A DNA stretch of 46,351 bases, from NCBI GenBank assembly GCA_944372455.1, contig CALVZF010000007.1, forward strand, positions 1-46,351, written 5' to 3'. This document shows, in pieces, positions 37,499 to 46,351 of the stretch (the stretch's first letter is position 1; each line of letters begins with the position of its first letter). Under the pieces are notes generated by a model. The model saw only the letters and a list, made by a program, of their open reading frames with translations. It ran no database searches and was not told where the DNA came from. The position numbers and the translations under genes were made by a program. The stretch comes from an uncultured Bacilli bacterium. GTDB taxonomy: Bacteria; Bacillota_I; Bacilli_A; RF39; UBA660.

Positions 37499-38170
37499 AT
37501 GAGTATTAAAAGTTATTTAGATATTAATTCAAAAGATTATTCTAAATTTGATGAAATAAATAATAAAAATATAGAAAATCTTGATATTAGTTCTATTTTT
37601 AAATTAGAAAGCAAAATTAAAAATAATATTTATAATTTAGAAAATTCAAATAAAGATTTAGATATTATATATTTAAATTATCAGAATATCAAATCTAATA
37701 TTAGTAACAAAATTGAAAAAGAAAAGAATATGCTTATAAAAATTGATGATAATAAATATAATTTTGATAAACAAGATTTAAGAAAACATTTATTATTCTT
37801 ATCTAAAGAATACAACTTTCTTTTAGAACAAACAAACACTAAATTTTTAATTGATAAAATAAATAAACTAGAATCTAAAATTGAAATTCTTATGGAAGGA
37901 TTAAAAGATAAAAATATTAATATTAAATATAACAAAATTAAAAAAGAATATGAAAAGATTGTAATATTTATTAATTCTGAAAAATTTGATAAAAAGTCAA
38001 GTATAGTTACTAATAATGTAGATATATCACAAAAGATAGAACGGTATAAATTGGAAATTGAAAATTTAATAGAAAAACAAATGATTTTTGATAAATATAT
38101 TTATTTATTAGAAAATCTTTATAGTGATTTATTAGAAAAAAGAATGTTAGCTTTTACTTGTAGTAAGTAA
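37499..38170 (+). CDS. Coiled-coil protein of unknown function
   Basis: This 223-residue protein is almost wholly helical, with heptad-like runs of Leu/Ile, Glu, Lys and Asn (about 30-60, 100-160 and 175-215). There is no signal peptide or membrane helix. I do not recognise a family. The ATG at 37499 follows GGAAGGTG at 6 nt; a GTG at 37490 lies inside that site and is rejected. Its final 24 bases overlap the 3' end of gatD on the other strand. It may be a structural or partner protein, but nothing ties it to a pathway. Confidence 0.7.
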   Translation: MSIKSYLDINSKDYSKFDEINNKNIENLDISSIFKLESKIKNNIYNLENSNKDLDIIYLNYQNIKSNISNKIEKEKNMLIKIDDNKYNFDKQDLRKHLLFLSKEYNFLLEQTNTKFLIDKINKLESKIEILMEGLKDKNINIKYNKIKKEYEKIVIFINSEKFDKKSSIVTNNVDISQKIERYKLEIENLIEKQMIFDKYIYLLENLYSDLLEKRMLAFTCSK

Positions 38171-38896
38171 TTTATCTAACATTTCTTTTTTTGCTTTTAT
38201 TTCAAATTCATCATCTAATTTTTTAAGAGTTATTTTTTTATTGTATTTTCTTTCCAAACAATATTTAATTATATAGTCTGCTAACTCTGGGTTTTTAGAT
38301 AATAATGGACCGTGTAAATATGTACCAATAACATTTTCTTTCTTTAATCCTTCAAACTTGTTTTTAAAAGTATTTCCATTGCCATATAAAACTTCACCTA
38401 GGGGTGTATCAACATTGTAAGTTTGTCCCCCATGATTTTCAAATCCTAAAATTTCTAAATTGTTATTTTCAATTTGACTTTTTATAACTATATTACCTAT
38501 GCATCTTTCTTTTTTATTTGTTGATGATTCTGTGTAATAATTGAAAATATTTAATCCTTCAATAATATTATTTTCTGAATCTTTATAATATTTTCCAAAT
38601 AGTTGAAATCCACCACAAATTAATAGGTAAAAAATTCCTATATTAATAGATCTTTCTATTTGCTTTTTAAATTTTATAATATCTTTTGCTACTACTTTTT
38701 GTTCTTTATCGGACCCACCACCTAAGAAGACTAAGTCATAATTATAAAAATCTGGATCCTCATCATTTATTGTATATGCATCTATATTTACTTCTATTCC
38801 TCTTTTTAATGCCCTATATTTTATAATTTCTATATTTCCATTATCTCCGTATAGATCCATTATATTAGGATATAAACATAAAATATTTAAATTCAT
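38147..38896 (-). CDS. gatD: Lipid II isoglutaminyl synthase, glutaminase subunit GatD
   Basis: The 249-residue class I glutaminase-like protein begins with MNLNILCLYPNIMDLYGDNG, typical of GatD. The nucleophile Cys94 lies in LLICGGFQLFG, the same number as in Staphylococcus aureus, and His195 in GTYLHGPLLS is the partner. GatD releases ammonia from glutamine for MurT, which amidates D-glutamate of lipid II. The ATG at 38896 comes 4 nt after the murT stop. A TTG at 38914 would overlap murT and lacks a ribosome site. The pair is present in peptidoglycan-producing Gram-positives only. Confidence 0.95.
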   Translation of the reverse strand: MNLNILCLYPNIMDLYGDNGNIEIIKYRALKRGIEVNIDAYTINDEDPDFYNYDLVFLGGGSDKEQKVVAKDIIKFKKQIERSINIGIFYLLICGGFQLFGKYYKDSENNIIEGLNIFNYYTESSTNKKERCIGNIVIKSQIENNNLEILGFENHGGQTYNVDTPLGEVLYGNGNTFKNKFEGLKKENVIGTYLHGPLLSKNPELADYIIKYCLERKYNKKITLKKLDDEFEIKAKKEMLDKLLTTSKS

Positions 38897-38900
38897 TTTA

Positions 38901-40226
38901 TCACTTTCTTTCAAGAGATTCTAATATTTCTTTTACTTCAACTAATGGTGAATAATTTGATATTATGTATTTTTTATTGTTTGTTTCTAATAGTTGTTTA
39001 ATTGCTTTTTCTTTATTGTGTTCCACAACTATTTTTGCTTTTGGAAAATTACTACATTTAATAGTAATAGCCATATCATATGCTCTTGTTCCAGAACAAA
39101 TTATTTTATTAAAGCTTTCAAGGTTATTAAAATCTATATCCCAAATCCAAGAAACATCATGGCCATCATTTTCTTTATCATTTAACACTATTAATAATTC
39201 TTTTTCTTCATCTTTTTGCTTAATGCTTTTTAAAACTACATTAAAACCTGTTGGATTTTTTCCTAAATTTAGTGTACAGACTTTACCATCTATTTTAAAT
39301 GTTTGATGACGTCCATTTTTATCTTCGTAATTATAGAATACTTTTTTTAAAATTTCATCATTTAGATTATAGATTTTTCCTAAAGCTATTATTGATAATA
39401 AATTATAAATATGATAAAGGTTTTCGTTGTTAGTTTCATAAATAGTTTTACCTACATAAAATTGCGACCTATCTATTTTACTTACCTCTATGTCTAGCTT
39501 TATATCCCCATAATTACATTTCTTACACTTAAATTTTCCAATATGAGCATATTGATAATATTCATAATCTAAAGGTATCTTGCAATATGGGCAAATTATA
39601 CCTTCCATTTTATCTTCTGAGTAAGTATGTGAAGTAGATAACTTTTTGATTCCAAAATAGTAATTTTTACCAGTTTCATTTTTATCCCCTATACGTATTA
39701 CGTTAGGATCATTTCCGTTTAATATTAAATTACAATTATAGTTTTGAATGAAATTTTCTAATTTTAAAACAATTGTTTCTATTTCCCCTGCTCTATCAAG
39801 TTGATCTCTAAAAAAATTTAATATAATTAGAGTATCTATCTTTAAATTAGGTTTAGAAAATATAACTGGAACCCAGTGCTCATCTGTTTCTAAGACTAAA
39901 TAATCAGTATCAATAATTCCATTTAATTTACAATTTTTAATTAAGGTTGTAGTTATACCCCATCCAATGTTATTGCCACCTTTATTGTATATTACACGTT
40001 TTTCTGATTTTGTTAAAACTTCGCTTATCATTGTTGTAGTCGTTGTTTTACCATTGGTACCAGTAACAACAATTATCTTACCGTTAACTTTTATATAATC
40101 TCTTATATTTTTATTTAGTTTTAATGCGATTCTACCCGGTATAGTTCCAGCTTTTTTACCGATTAAATTTAACATCCAAATAACAATCTTGGTCAAAATA
40201 ATTGTGCAGACATTTATAAAATTCAT
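38901..40226 (-). CDS. murT: Lipid II isoglutaminyl synthase, Mur ligase-like subunit MurT
   Basis: The protein (441 residues) has an N-terminal hydrophobic stretch, the ATP loop VTGTNGKTTTTT at about 54-65, and NKGGNNIGWGI. The middle domain contains LNFFRDQLDRAGE and a four-cysteine zinc ribbon (CPYC and CKKC), which is special to MurT. The C-terminal DUF1727-type part starts near LNLGKNPTGFN. MurT with GatD converts D-Glu to D-isoGln in lipid II. I place the start at ATG 40226 with GGTGAT before it; an upstream GTG at 40238 is possible. It has its own promoter. Confidence 0.95.
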   Translation of the reverse strand: MNFINVCTIILTKIVIWMLNLIGKKAGTIPGRIALKLNKNIRDYIKVNGKIIVVTGTNGKTTTTTMISEVLTKSEKRVIYNKGGNNIGWGITTTLIKNCKLNGIIDTDYLVLETDEHWVPVIFSKPNLKIDTLIILNFFRDQLDRAGEIETIVLKLENFIQNYNCNLILNGNDPNVIRIGDKNETGKNYYFGIKKLSTSHTYSEDKMEGIICPYCKIPLDYEYYQYAHIGKFKCKKCNYGDIKLDIEVSKIDRSQFYVGKTIYETNNENLYHIYNLLSIIALGKIYNLNDEILKKVFYNYEDKNGRHQTFKIDGKVCTLNLGKNPTGFNVVLKSIKQKDEEKELLIVLNDKENDGHDVSWIWDIDFNNLESFNKIICSGTRAYDMAITIKCSNFPKAKIVVEHNKEKAIKQLLETNNKKYIISNYSPLVEVKEILESLERK

Positions 40227-40247
40227 ACTAATCACCACTACCTATAT

Positions 40248-41200: not shown

Positions 41201-42293
41201 TTATTCTACCTCCATTTTTAAATAAGCGTTAATAAACAAATCTATTTCACCATCTAATACTTTAGATACATTGCTGGTTTCTACATTTGTTCTATGATCT
41301 TTTACTAATGAATATGGGTGCATTACATAACTTCTTATTTGTGATCCAAATTCATTAGCTTGCTTGTTACCATTTATTTTATCTATTTCTTCTTTTTTTT
41401 GTTCAAGCTTCAAAAGTACTAACTTACTTTTTAAGATCTTTAATGCAGTTTCTTTATTTTTGATTTGACTTCTTTCATTTTGGCAAGTAACTACAATTTT
41501 GGTTGGGATATGTGTAATTCTAACTGCACTATCAGTAGTATTAACATGTTGTCCGCCAGCTCCACTACTTCTATATACGTCAATTTTTAAATCTGTTTCT
41601 TTTAAATCAATTTCTATATCGTTATTTATTTCTGGAGTAACTAATACTGAGGCAAAAGAAGTATGTCTTCTTTTATTTGAATCAAATGGGGAGATTCTTA
41701 CTAATCTATGGACACCTTTTTCGCTTTTTAAATAACCATAAGCATTTTCTCCTTTAATAAGTATAGAAATACTTTTTAAACCTGCTTCTTCTCCTTCTAC
41801 TTGATCAATTACTTCAACTTTATAATTTTTTCTTTCGGCATATCTTGTGTACATTCTTAATAACATTGTAACCCAATCACAACTTTCTGTTCCCCCAGCA
41901 CCAGAATGAATTTCTAATATGCAATTATTAGAATCATATTCCCCATTTAAAAGAACTTCTAATTCTAATTCTTTATAATTATTAGAAATTTCAGTTAAAT
42001 CATTACTTATTAACTCTAAAACCTCTGAATCTTCTCCTAAGTCAAGAATTTCTAGGCTACTATTAATTTTATCTTTTAATGTTTCTATTTTACTTACTTT
42101 GGTTTTTAATACATTAATTTCATTTATAACTTTTTCGCTTTCTTTTTGATTGTCCCAAAAATTTGTCTTATTCATTTCATTTGATAATTTTTCTATTTTG
42201 AGTTTTTTAGTATCAACGTCAAAGTGACCTCCATAGTTCGTCAATTTTGACTTTGAATTTTTCAAGTTCATTTTTACATTCTCTATATTCCAT
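41201..42293 (-). CDS. prfB: Peptide chain release factor 2 (programmed +1 frameshift)
   Basis: RF2 recognises UAA and UGA. The SPF codon-recognition tripeptide is in RISPFDSNKRRHTSFAS, and the catalytic GGQ is in SSGAGGQHVN. Translation starts at ATG 42293 (MEYRECKNELEKF), 9 nt after GAGG. It runs 24 codons to CTT and an in-frame TGA (42221-42219), then must shift +1 to continue as DVDTKKLKI. The full product is 363 residues, the normal length. A shorter frame starting at 42271 is artificial. RF2 abundance controls its own synthesis through this site. yitT follows with no gap. Confidence 0.97.
42219..42232 (-). promoter_or_regulatory. prfB +1 frameshift site
   Basis: The minus strand reads GGAGGTCACTTTGA: an internal Shine-Dalgarno-like GGAGG (42232-42228), the slippery CTT codon, and TGA followed by C. 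Spacing matches known prfB sites (SD, three bases, CTT TGA C). The weak UGA C context aids shifting when RF2 is scarce. Confidence 0.95.
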
Positions 42294-42674: not shown

Positions 42675-43589
42675 CATTAGCTATTAAATTATTATCTTCA
42701 TTAACTTGTTTTTGCAATAATTCTAAATTCTTAATGTTTTTATTATCTTTTAACACTTTCATTTGTCTTCTGGCAGAATTATTAAGCTTAACTAATCTTT
42801 CATTTTGTGGAACTTTGGCTTCTATTAATTCGGCATTTGTATTTTCTAAGTTATTTAATATTACTAAATGAAGTAAATCAGTATAGTCCCTAATATTTCC
42901 ATTTTTAGCAAGTTCTTTATTATTTTCTCTCCATTCTTTTGCTGTCATACCAAATAGTGCAACATTTAAAACATCCGCTTCTTCTGAGTCTACAAATTTC
43001 TTTTGGGCTTCTGTAAGTGTTGGTACGATATAAGTTTTTACCGCATCAGTATGAACTATGTAATTTAAATTTAGATAATAATCTATTGGCTTGCCAATCA
43101 ACTTTTTCTTGGTATGCCTCATTTGTTTTTAATCTTTCAAATTCTTTAATTAAGTATAATTTAAATTCTGGAGATAGCCAACTCGCAAAATCAAATGCAA
43201 TATCAGGATCCTATACTATATCTTCCACCTTTTGAAATAATACCTATAGCGTTAGTTCTTTTTACCCATTGTGTTGGTGACATGGCAAATGAGTTTCTAC
43301 CATACTCAGTTTTAATTTAGTCGAATTCGACCAAATTAAAATCTTGATTATGGATTTCTTCCCACAAACCAATATAATCTATAGTATTAATTCTTCTTAA
43401 CCAGTTCTTTACTGTAAAAGATGGATCACTTGCATTTTGATATCTTGCCAAATCAGTTAATGAAATATAATTAACATTCCCAACCCTTAATATTCCAACT
43501 TTATTTTCTTTAACGACTATTTCTGTTGTTACTAAATTTTTTTCAATAATTATTACCTCTATTCTATTAAATTTAAAAGGTGTCAACAA
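42664..43589 (-). pseudogene. Disrupted KilA-N domain protein
   Basis: Three reading frames together make one KilA-N protein. The N-terminal part has ILRVGNVNYISLTDLARYQN and WEEIHNQDFNLVEFD and ends in TAA (43317-43319). The same frame goes on with IKTEYGRNSFAMSPTQWVKR and GIISKGGRYS. The frame changes near 43210 to DPDIAFDFASWLSPEFKLYL and on to VDWQANRLLSK. It changes again at 43067-43069, where one extra T shifts to LNYIVHTDAVKTYIVPTL and LNVALFGMTAKEWR. The start is also doubtful: GAGGT is followed by ATT codons, with only a TTG upstream. KilA-N proteins are DNA-binding phage or accessory factors. This copy appears inactive. Confidence 0.88.
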
Positions 43590-43877: not shown

Positions 43878-45842
43878 CTATAATTCGCCTTTATAAAAAT
43901 AAATTTTCATTGCGTCTTCATTATACGTAGGTTTTGAAATATCTATATTGAGAAAATTTGATATATAATATATTAAATATTGAGATGAAATTAATAAATC
44001 ATATTCACATAATATTCCATCATATCTACTTTCAATTATCAAATTTTGATCTTTTTCTAAATACTCCAATAGCTTTTTCTCATATAAACTTGTAGTTTTT
44101 TGTTTAAAATAAATATTTTTGTGATGACTTAAATGCTCATAATTAATAAATCTTCCATGTGAAAAATTTTTCTTTTCATGGATTAAACAATTATATATAC
44201 CAGACTCAATTATTTTACTTTCTAAATCACTGCCAGCAGATTCAGTAAAATCTCCTGTAAAAATATTAAAACTATTTCCAACGCTCAAAAATTCTTTTAG
44301 CATTTTCTTATTTTCTTTAAAATATTTGTCAAAGTAATTTTTCCAATAATTTATACTATCTCTAATAAACTCTTCAATATCATTTCTTGATTTTTTTTCA
44401 AAATATAATTTTAAAAATAAACTAGCAGGTGCTAAAGCACCTTCAAAAGATAGAAATCCTCTCTCTTTTCCTTTATTAGTTCCTGTTCGATATGAAATAA
44501 CATTATTTTTAGATATTCCAGTTGTTGTTACAACTCTTTGTAATTCACCTTTTGTTATAATATATTTATTATTGTTGTCAATTAAACTTACTCCCACAAG
44601 CAAATCATTTGTAGTTCCTGAGTATGTAAACAAAAATACTGAATCAACACTATTATTGTTTCTATAATAGAAGTCCCTAGGATATAAGGCAATTGTATTT
44701 ATTCCATATAAATCATTAATAAGTTTAGATGAAAATTTTGCGCCTGCAAAAGAACCACCAGTTCCCACAAAAACAATATTATTCAAGTTTTCAAAATCTA
44801 TTTTAGATAACTTATCATAAGCACTACTATTAATAGCATTAATTATTCTTGTCTCTAAATTATTAATATTTATATTACATCTTTTTATTTGTTTTCTTAA
44901 TGAAATATCAAAATTACTGCAAGTACAAGCATCTTTCACTTTTTTAATTTTATATAAATTTTGTATATGACCTCGTGCCCCAAACTTTTTTACAACCTTT
45001 TTTGTAAGTTTAGTTGCCTTTTCAAAAGTTGAATCTATAAATTTACAATCAATAATATAGTTATTTTTTATATATTCACTAATAAACACCCCAAAAAATG
45101 CATCACCAGCTCCTGTTGGATCAACTTCTATCTCAGGATCCCTTAACTCTTTATTGACTTTATTATTATTAAAAACAAAATCGGAACCTTTTTTTCCTCT
45201 AGTAACAATTATCATTTTAGGATGTAATATATTATATATATCTTCCAATGATTTTATAGAAAATTTATTTTTTAAGTATTTTTCAACTCGTTCATTTAAA
45301 TTTATAATATCAAATTTATTTTTAATTTTTGCTAGTATTTCATTATCCTTATAATCTTCTAACTCAAAATATTGTCCCAAATCTAACATTTTTCTATTAT
45401 CACAATTATCTATGATAATTTGATTTTTCTTATTTAAATTGTCAAAAACCAAAACATCATCTTTATTAATTTGTTTCAAAATATCATTTGATTCTATTTT
45501 ACTTTCTTCATACCATCTTTTTATATTACAAAATGGGCATCGTTTTTTTGAAGTAAACTCTAATTTACCATTTAATTCTTGATATGATACATGAAAAGAA
45601 CGTGTATTTATATTTTCAATCATTTTTACATTATCAATATTTGTTCCGACTTCCTTTAAGCTATTAATTGCTATAGTACCTGCCATGTCATTTCCACAAA
45701 CACCATAAACAGATGTTTCTAAACCCAGCTTAGCAATATTAGCAATTATATTATGAGAAGTCATTCCACCATTTACTCCTATCAATTTGCCATTTTTATA
45801 ATAAAAATCTGTAACTAAATCTCCTATACTAATTATTCTCAT
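43878..45842 (-). CDS. PfkB-family kinase fused to SIS sugar isomerase/deglycase
   Basis: Residues 1 to about 295 are a ribokinase-like (PfkB) kinase: IISIGDLVTDFYYKNG, GVNGGMTSHNIIANIAKLG, and DPTGAGDAFFG with catalytic Asp247. A CPFC pair (Cys102, Cys105) is inserted where most family members have none. A linker has DACTC (Cys306, Cys308), so a zinc site is possible. Residues 350-654 resemble a double SIS domain: VFVGTGGSFAGAKFSS, FLFTYSGTTNDLL, ESAGSDLESKIIESG and HGRFINYEHLSHH. The pair would phosphorylate a sugar derivative and then isomerise or deglycate it, as FrlD and FrlB do for fructoselysine. The true substrate is unknown. The ATG overlaps the upstream truncated frame. Confidence 0.85.
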   Translation of the reverse strand: MRIISIGDLVTDFYYKNGKLIGVNGGMTSHNIIANIAKLGLETSVYGVCGNDMAGTIAINSLKEVGTNIDNVKMIENINTRSFHVSYQELNGKLEFTSKKRCPFCNIKRWYEESKIESNDILKQINKDDVLVFDNLNKKNQIIIDNCDNRKMLDLGQYFELEDYKDNEILAKIKNKFDIINLNERVEKYLKNKFSIKSLEDIYNILHPKMIIVTRGKKGSDFVFNNNKVNKELRDPEIEVDPTGAGDAFFGVFISEYIKNNYIIDCKFIDSTFEKATKLTKKVVKKFGARGHIQNLYKIKKVKDACTCSNFDISLRKQIKRCNININNLETRIINAINSSAYDKLSKIDFENLNNIVFVGTGGSFAGAKFSSKLINDLYGINTIALYPRDFYYRNNNSVDSVFLFTYSGTTNDLLVGVSLIDNNNKYIITKGELQRVVTTTGISKNNVISYRTGTNKGKERGFLSFEGALAPASLFLKLYFEKKSRNDIEEFIRDSINYWKNYFDKYFKENKKMLKEFLSVGNSFNIFTGDFTESAGSDLESKIIESGIYNCLIHEKKNFSHGRFINYEHLSHHKNIYFKQKTTSLYEKKLLEYLEKDQNLIIESRYDGILCEYDLLISSQYLIYYISNFLNIDISKPTYNEDAMKIYFYKGEL

Positions 45843-46101
45843 TCTTCATCTTCCTTTTTACATATAATACTTCGCTCTTTTTAGAATAGTCTCCGTTTTT
45901 TACTAAGCATTCTAATATTTTTCTTCTGTTCAAATCAAAAATTCTTAAAGAGTCTTCATATGGGTTTGTACTATATGGATTCTTCCAATTATAAGTTATC
46001 TTGATTAAAGGATTATAGATATTTACAATCTTATAAAGATATGTTTTTTGTGTACAATATCTATATTCGTCTATTAAATTTAAATATATTAAATCTAAAT
46101 G
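45829..46101 (-). pseudogene. N-terminally truncated frame before the PfkB-SIS gene
   Basis: An open frame of 90 codons has no usable start: the only ATG is 8 codons before the end, and a stop (46104-46102) precedes it. The residues look like real protein (YNPLIKITYNWKNPYSTNPY and FDLNRRKILECLVKN), and the stop overlaps the PfkB-SIS ATG by 14 nt, as in an operon. I do not recognise the family. It is most likely the C-terminal remnant of a partner gene whose front was lost. The 60 bp before it carry only a seven-codon ATG frame. Confidence 0.45.
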
Positions 46102-46161: not shown

Positions 46162-46351
46162 CTATAATAATTTTAAATATTTATTTAACATTTCTATTTC
46201 CAATTTAGTTATTAATTTAACAAAATCTGTATAATTACCTGTTGTATGGGCTTTATCTAGTGCTTCATAATATTTTAATCTATCTTCTTTTTTTATTATT
46301 ACTGGATTAAACCCATGATTCATTAAATCTAAATTCATGAGTAATCTTGAT
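46162..46351 (-). CDS. Fic-family protein, C-terminal end (partial)
   Basis: Only the last 62 codons lie in the window, and the gene continues beyond the end. The sequence starts SRLLMNLDLMNHGFNPVIIK, which is the part right after the Fic signature HPFxDGNGRTxR. It goes on with EDRLKYYEALDKAHTTGNYT, followed by the usual DFVKLI helix, and ends at TAG 46164-46162. Fic proteins transfer AMP or other groups onto proteins, often as toxins or regulators. The active site itself is outside the window, so activity cannot be judged. No inhibitory partner is seen after it. Confidence 0.85.
   Translation of the reverse strand, partial: SRLLMNLDLMNHGFNPVIIKKEDRLKYYEALDKAHTTGNYTDFVKLITKLEIEMLNKYLKLL

Follow-up and report, generated by a model that had tools for sequence, protein, structure and literature searches.

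The window, that is the whole stretch of DNA analysed, is a contig of 46,351 bases from a genome of 1.15 Mb, and the gene discussed here lies close to one of its ends. On the reverse strand, the ORF at positions 43878-45842 is open across 654 codons, and its product was confirmed to be a PfkB kinase joined to a double-SIS domain in a single chain of 654 amino acids, referred to below as kinase-SIS (KS). The same architecture had been proposed in an earlier, sequence-only reading and is upheld by Pfam, a profile search of the PDB and conservation. The features of the locus are as follows:

43878..45842, reverse strand: KS fusion gene, 654 aa; full-length conservation in about 70 loci, dN/dS of 0.11 against the nearest homologue
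44913..45842, reverse strand: PfkB-family kinase half, residues about 1-310; Pfam PfkB match and fold matches of the AlphaFold2 model
45528..45539, reverse strand: first cysteine pair CPFC, C102/C105; in 43/43 homologues, four stand-alone kinases and a divergent fusion
45102..45113, reverse strand: kinase catalytic motif GAGD, residues 244-247; G244, G246 and D247 invariant in 43 homologues
44919..44927, reverse strand: second cysteine pair CTC ("DACTC"), C306/C308, at the end of the kinase; in 43/43 homologues
43881..44885, reverse strand: double-SIS half, residues 320-654; alignment of relatives, PDB profile search and hhalign with FrlB
44751..44765, reverse strand: phosphosugar loop GTGGS of SIS-1, residues 360-364; G360, G362, G363 and S364 invariant
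44610..44621, reverse strand: SIS-1 loop SGTT, residues 408-411; S408, G409 and T411 invariant in the fusions
44205..44207, reverse strand: Glu546, predicted catalytic base (FrlB Glu233, GlmS Glu489); alignments and motif spacing
44157..44159, reverse strand: His562 of HGRF, predicted ring-opening/acid residue (FrlB His249, GlmS His505); alignments and motif spacing
45829..46002, reverse strand: C-terminal remnant (last 50-odd codons) of a HAD-phosphoribosyltransferase gene; 87% identical to the gene end in locus L033
42664..43122 and 43317..43589, reverse strand: KilA-N/antirepressor-like gene in two fragments; phrog_2657 and KilA-N matches
46162..46351: C-terminus of a Fic gene, cut by the contig end

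The kinase half matched the Pfam PfkB model over residues 30-265 (E 3e-17) and carries both the N-terminal GG signature and the C-terminal GAGD with the catalytic Asp, by which membership of the PfkB (ribokinase) family is judged. In the alignment of 43 fusion homologues, on which all counts of invariant residues are based, G25, G26, G244, G246 and D247 do not vary. The AlphaFold2 model of KS has a mean pLDDT of 88, and a fold search with the whole model returned kinase matches throughout, so that its scope is the kinase half. Residues 1-294 match sugar and nucleoside kinases with Z up to 28.9 (275 residues, rmsd 2.6); fructokinase, KDG kinase, ribokinase and nucleoside kinases are found at Z 26-29 over about 270 residues, and aminoimidazole-riboside kinases are also among the matches. 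Since they range from fructokinase to nucleoside kinases, the modelled fold does not pick the substrate.

Curated models (TIGR02128, GlmS) give only a weak SIS signal for the C-terminal half, and the best of these weak matches include phosphoglucose/phosphomannose isomerase and NagB-II. Twenty-seven relatives, both fused and stand-alone, were aligned, and the resulting profile, run against the PDB sequences, found the SIS protein 2AML, GlmS, glucosamine-6-P deaminase and the fructose-amino-acid-6-P deglycase 3EUA, and two alpha/beta units are present in the AlphaFold2 secondary structure. Using hhalign, E. coli FrlB aligned near end-to-end, with its "TLMEFTW...FRHGP" placed over "SKIIESG...FSHGR"; as this match to a single sequence is statistically weak (E 0.03), the class membership is based on the profile search and the motif. 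With AgaS and GlmS, the first SIS unit alone was matched, where GlmS scored above FrlB. A Glu/His pair provides catalytic residues in GlmS and FrlB-type enzymes. In KS, Glu546 and His562 are 16 positions apart, the same spacing as in FrlB (Glu233/His249) and in the encoded GlmS (Glu489/His505), and together with Lys557 they are invariant even among stand-alone SIS relatives of 23-32% identity. The Glu-x15-HG pattern was not shown by the AgaS record compared, and the motif test therefore refers to FrlB and GlmS. Judged by profile and motif, the SIS half is a double SIS of the GlmS/FrlB/amine type, not of the heptose (GmhA) kind. A loss of catalytic residues in homologues, which the sequence-only reading had named as an argument against itself, did not occur in either half of the 43 fusions. 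A Pfam match to CNF1 in the SIS half (E 0.004, below the cut-off) was rejected as chance, because the stretch aligns to SIS and the match appeared in 3 of the 27 relatives.

C102, C105, C306 and C308 are present in all 43 fusions. They had been taken for a structural zinc site joining the two halves; however, both pairs sit in the kinase and also occur in the stand-alone kinases L108, L113, L114 and L021, which carry CPxC (CLYC in L114) as well as CxC and terminate within about 12 residues after the second pair, so that a zinc bridge between the halves is not supported. The divergent fusion L109 has CPKC and CQLC at these positions, and the stand-alone kinase L112 has neither pair. The four cysteines thus appear to be gained or lost as a set, which suggests a metal site inside the kinase rather than between the halves. 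In the stand-alone relative L021 (8017-8949), GANA replaces GAGD, so that the catalytic Asp is gone while the four cysteines are kept.

A protein search of 98 relatives revealed the full-length fusion in five other genomes at 57-79% identity, and a scan of the GTDB species genomes revealed it on about 70 contigs at 55-92% identity; a fusion kept at full length on so many contigs cannot be explained as a chance ORF or as genes merged at this locus alone. All hosts are MAGs, either of uncultured Bacilli, Tenericutes or Mycoplasmatota (Candidatus Faecisoma and Caccenecus among them) or with no more than "bacterium" or "Firmicutes" as their title. Across the phylum (344 genomes), matches to the fusion profile were confined to the family of the source genome, in which 57 of 291 genomes gave a match of any kind and the full fusion is present in about 18-20. 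Between the window and L033, the fusion differs by a dN of 0.043 and a dS of 0.38, and a dN/dS of about 0.11 was obtained for the kinase half and the SIS half separately when the window was compared with its nearest homologue. Pfam, NCBIfam and PADLOC hold no name for the fusion, the cysteine-bearing kinase, the SIS subfamily or the operon described below, and nothing relevant on a PfkB-SIS fusion or this operon was found in the openly accessible literature.

The search for the same domain order and its neighbourhoods, as recommended in the sequence-only reading, also uncovered a conserved operon. Sixty loci with at least 2.5 kb of upstream DNA were testable, including L057, where the upstream DNA is masked and the absence of the HAD-phosphoribosyltransferase (HAD-PRTase) gene is unproven. 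The gene order WYL regulator, small HAD phosphatase (160 aa), HAD-PRTase (770 aa; HAD-IIB phosphatase at the N-terminus, phosphoribosyltransferase at the C-terminus) and kinase-SIS was found in 35 of them, and the HAD-PRTase gene lies upstream of the fusion in 41. In many loci its end overlaps the start of the fusion by 4 or 14 nt, and as a rule kinase-SIS closes this small operon. Some loci have a CAT-like acyltransferase and an alpha/beta hydrolase inserted between HAD-PRTase and the fusion, others a DHH phosphoesterase and an APH-type kinase; these accessory genes were named by inspecting their sequences, with Pfam matches in relatives as a further basis for CAT and APH. The fold search with HAD-PRTase was filled by matches to its HAD domain, whose model resembles, among others, IMP-nucleotidase (ISN1). 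No transporter, PTS or glycosidase recurs next to KS in the about 70 neighbourhoods. WYL is the gene most regularly found with the SIS part, although it is not adjacent in many fusion loci. In L108 and L114, WYL is followed by SIS and then by a separate kinase gene, and from such linked genes behind the same regulator it follows that the two activities belong together without fusion. Farther relatives show WYL-SIS-Ham1 or WYL-SIS alone; Ham1/XTPase-like genes stand directly behind stand-alone SIS relatives and ahead of KS in L071/L073.

Some relatives of these proteins occur in other settings. HAD-less relatives of HAD-PRTase with 554-568 aa are encoded in genomes without kinase-SIS, at L110 (767-2431), adjoining an APH kinase and RelA/SpoT-like genes, and at L111 (8435-10141), adjoining CAT, GNAT and the small HAD gene. 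At L112 (3833-12155), the cysteine-less stand-alone PfkB kinase is part of a cluster that also encodes two radical-SAM/SPASM proteins, a glutamine-synthetase-like enzyme, a RelA/SpoT protein, an HD protein and an APH kinase, an arrangement resembling a small-molecule biosynthesis cluster.

In the window, this operon has been lost, which is why it was missed when the DNA was read on its own. KilA-N and Fic genes do flank KS there, but the immediate upstream feature is the HAD-PRTase remnant, which overlaps the start of kinase-SIS by 14 nt. L033 has the complete gene set, its HAD-PRTase being divided into two ORFs. On the fusion tree, the presence of HAD-PRTase changes 17 times, at least 12 of them forced by well-supported branches; as this is a quick tree, 17 should be read as many times, and parsimony by itself is blind to gain versus loss, but the leftover gene stubs indicate losses. 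Such stubs, from the last few to about 150 codons, precede the KS start in L034, L041, L078, L079, L080, L083 and L093, and what looks like a short EID-coding repeat marks the deletion ends in L080 and L083. Across 52 codons, the window's own stub has kept a dN/dS of about 0.11. In pairs without HAD-PRTase, e.g. L039/L040 and L071/L073, the dN/dS of the fusion is 0.11-0.16; this persistence of purifying selection where the HAD-PRTase gene is gone indicates that the fusion is useful without it.

Elsewhere on the contig, prfB (release factor 2; 41201-42293, reverse strand) has an in-frame UGA at codon 25 (42219-42221, AGG TCA CTT TGA C), which is the classical autoregulatory +1 frameshift; its entry in the ORF list uses a later, second-frame ATG as start. 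No Pfam SIS domain scored above the threshold anywhere in the 95%-complete source genome, and GlmS was accordingly not found there, despite which the MurT/GatD genes at 38147-40238 suggest peptidoglycan synthesis.

On the observed fusion, its conservation, residues, selection and operon we base a proposal for activity, step order and substrate class. KS may be a bifunctional enzyme that phosphorylates and then opens or deglycates an intracellular sugar-amine or ribosyl adduct, a reading to which we give an even chance. With ATP as donor, the PfkB half would place a phosphate on the primary hydroxyl of a sugar derivative; the double-SIS half would bind the phosphosugar product, open the ring and shift a proton at C1/C2 via Glu546 and His562. 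This step would remove or rearrange the amine to yield an aldose or ketose phosphate and the amine, as FrlD and then FrlB do with fructoselysine. The substrate would most likely be a ketosamine or an N-ribosyl or N-glycosyl adduct made within the cell and handled in repair or salvage, since no transporter is linked to KS and the gene can survive alone. In the full operon, the WYL regulator would control KS, and the two HAD phosphatases and the phosphoribosyltransferase would share the same pool. More tentatively, and with somewhat less than even confidence, we regard WYL, small HAD, HAD-PRTase and kinase-SIS as an undescribed pathway for the repair or production of a ribosylated or glycated metabolite, confined to a single family of host-associated Bacilli with small genomes, in which KS would be the indispensable member. 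Genomes near 1.1 Mb hold few dispensable enzymes, yet the fusion outlasts the repeated loss of its operon partners and stays under strong purifying selection. Knowing its substrate would reveal a sugar-amine or ribosyl by-product with which these gut bacteria have to cope, and would assign a first function to HAD-PRTase, the small HAD, the SIS and the cysteine-bearing PfkB families, all unnamed in public family models.

To our knowledge, none of the known fructosamine pathways involves a phosphoribosyltransferase, which counts against a reading like FrlD/FrlB. The strongest rival explanation starts from this enzyme: the phosphoribosyltransferase would make a ribosylated base, the HAD enzymes would dephosphorylate it, and KS would act as a PfkB nucleoside kinase with an SIS half that isomerises or cleaves the ribosyl phosphate, in order to make or salvage a nucleoside-like metabolite or to clear damaged nucleotides. 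The combination of HAD-IIB and PRTase in the operon partner, the likeness of the HAD model to ISN1, the Ham1/XTPase-like genes near SIS relatives and KS, and kinase fold matches that cover nucleoside, aminoimidazole-riboside and sugar kinases alike speak for it. However, SIS enzymes of the GlmS/FrlB class work on open-chain phosphosugars, a nucleosidase was not found in the analysis, and KS stays under purifying selection after HAD-PRTase is lost, so that the PRTase is dispensable for its use; we therefore consider this explanation unlikely, at roughly one chance in four. Rather less probable still is a plain catabolic pair of a kinase and an aldose/ketose isomerase, or an aminosugar-phosphate deaminase like AgaS/NagB-II, feeding a sugar into glycolysis. 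Phosphoglucose/phosphomannose isomerase and NagB-II among the best weak curated SIS matches would fit this, but transporter, PTS and glycosidase genes do not recur beside KS, and Glu-x15-His is an arrangement of the amine/deglycase type.

Two further readings dispense with such a metabolic role, and we consider both very improbable. A sensor or regulator of the GckR type, with a ligand-binding SIS and a kinase scaffold working with the WYL regulator and little catalysis, would explain why the SIS part is accompanied most constantly by WYL and why the stand-alone kinase L021 can lack the catalytic Asp; it is hard to reconcile with catalytic residues that are invariant in both halves of 43 fusions and with WYL not being adjacent in many fusion loci. 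The sequence-only reading had also considered a role in an anti-phage or nucleotide-modifying defence system, for which the KilA-N and Fic genes near KS, the patchy distribution and the accessory genes that vary between HAD-PRTase and KS (CAT, alpha/beta hydrolase, DHH, APH) could be cited. This idea found no support in PADLOC, phage or viral-contig searches, and the neighbours proved inconsistent. KilA-N recurs in just one other genome, G029, where a related gene lies near KS (L020), and about half a dozen further loci have a Fic gene, in no fixed position; the KilA-N/antirepressor-like gene of the window is apparently broken by a frameshift or stops. None of KS, HAD-PRTase, the small HAD and the accessory DHH and APH proteins has a PADLOC family, and WYL is matched there only as a generic regulator. 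The phage records and viral contigs searched contain no matching KS homologue, and the plasmid records only distant generic sugar kinases (about 24% identity) and no closely related homologue. A mobile-element origin of the locus would fit the flanking genes, which vary between KS loci, but no constant integrase was found among them.

Compared with known systems, the component folds and the two-step logic of a kinase and an SIS enzyme are familiar, while the fusion and the operon are uncharacterised. HldE and GmhA likewise combine a PfkB kinase and an SIS isomerase as successive steps; however, GmhA is a single-SIS protein, whereas the second half of KS (335 aa) is a double SIS of the amine type, and a nucleotidyltransferase domain as in HldE was not found in the KS chain. 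The heptose analogy drawn earlier is thus not supported, the SIS half being of the GlmS/FrlB type. The AgaS/NagB-II deaminases belong to the same SIS class, and the alignment with 8EOL matches the HG motif region, but KS has no adjoining aminosugar pathway genes. The isomerase domain of GlmS shares with KS the double SIS, Glu-x15-His and, in the fusions, an equivalently placed C-terminal lysine (Lys646, in 42 of 43 fusions, aligned with GlmS Lys603); KS differs in being fused to a kinase, in lacking a glutaminase domain according to Pfam, and in the loss of this lysine in some stand-alone relatives. In E. coli, FrlD is the fructoselysine 6-kinase and FrlB the fructoselysine-6-phosphate deglycase. 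Of the analogies drawn earlier, this one fits the SIS half best, with Glu546/His562 on Glu233/His249, and the sequence is compatible with a kinase and a deglycase for an Amadori compound. KS resembles the pair in the succession of PfkB kinase and double SIS and in a Glu/His pair of the same spacing and aligned position. It differs in joining in one chain what are two chains there, in its distant sequence similarity, in having no transporter (FrlA or FrlMNO), epimerase or FrlR-type regulator, and in a kinase that bears the four-cysteine set and is linked to WYL, HAD and HAD-PRTase genes.
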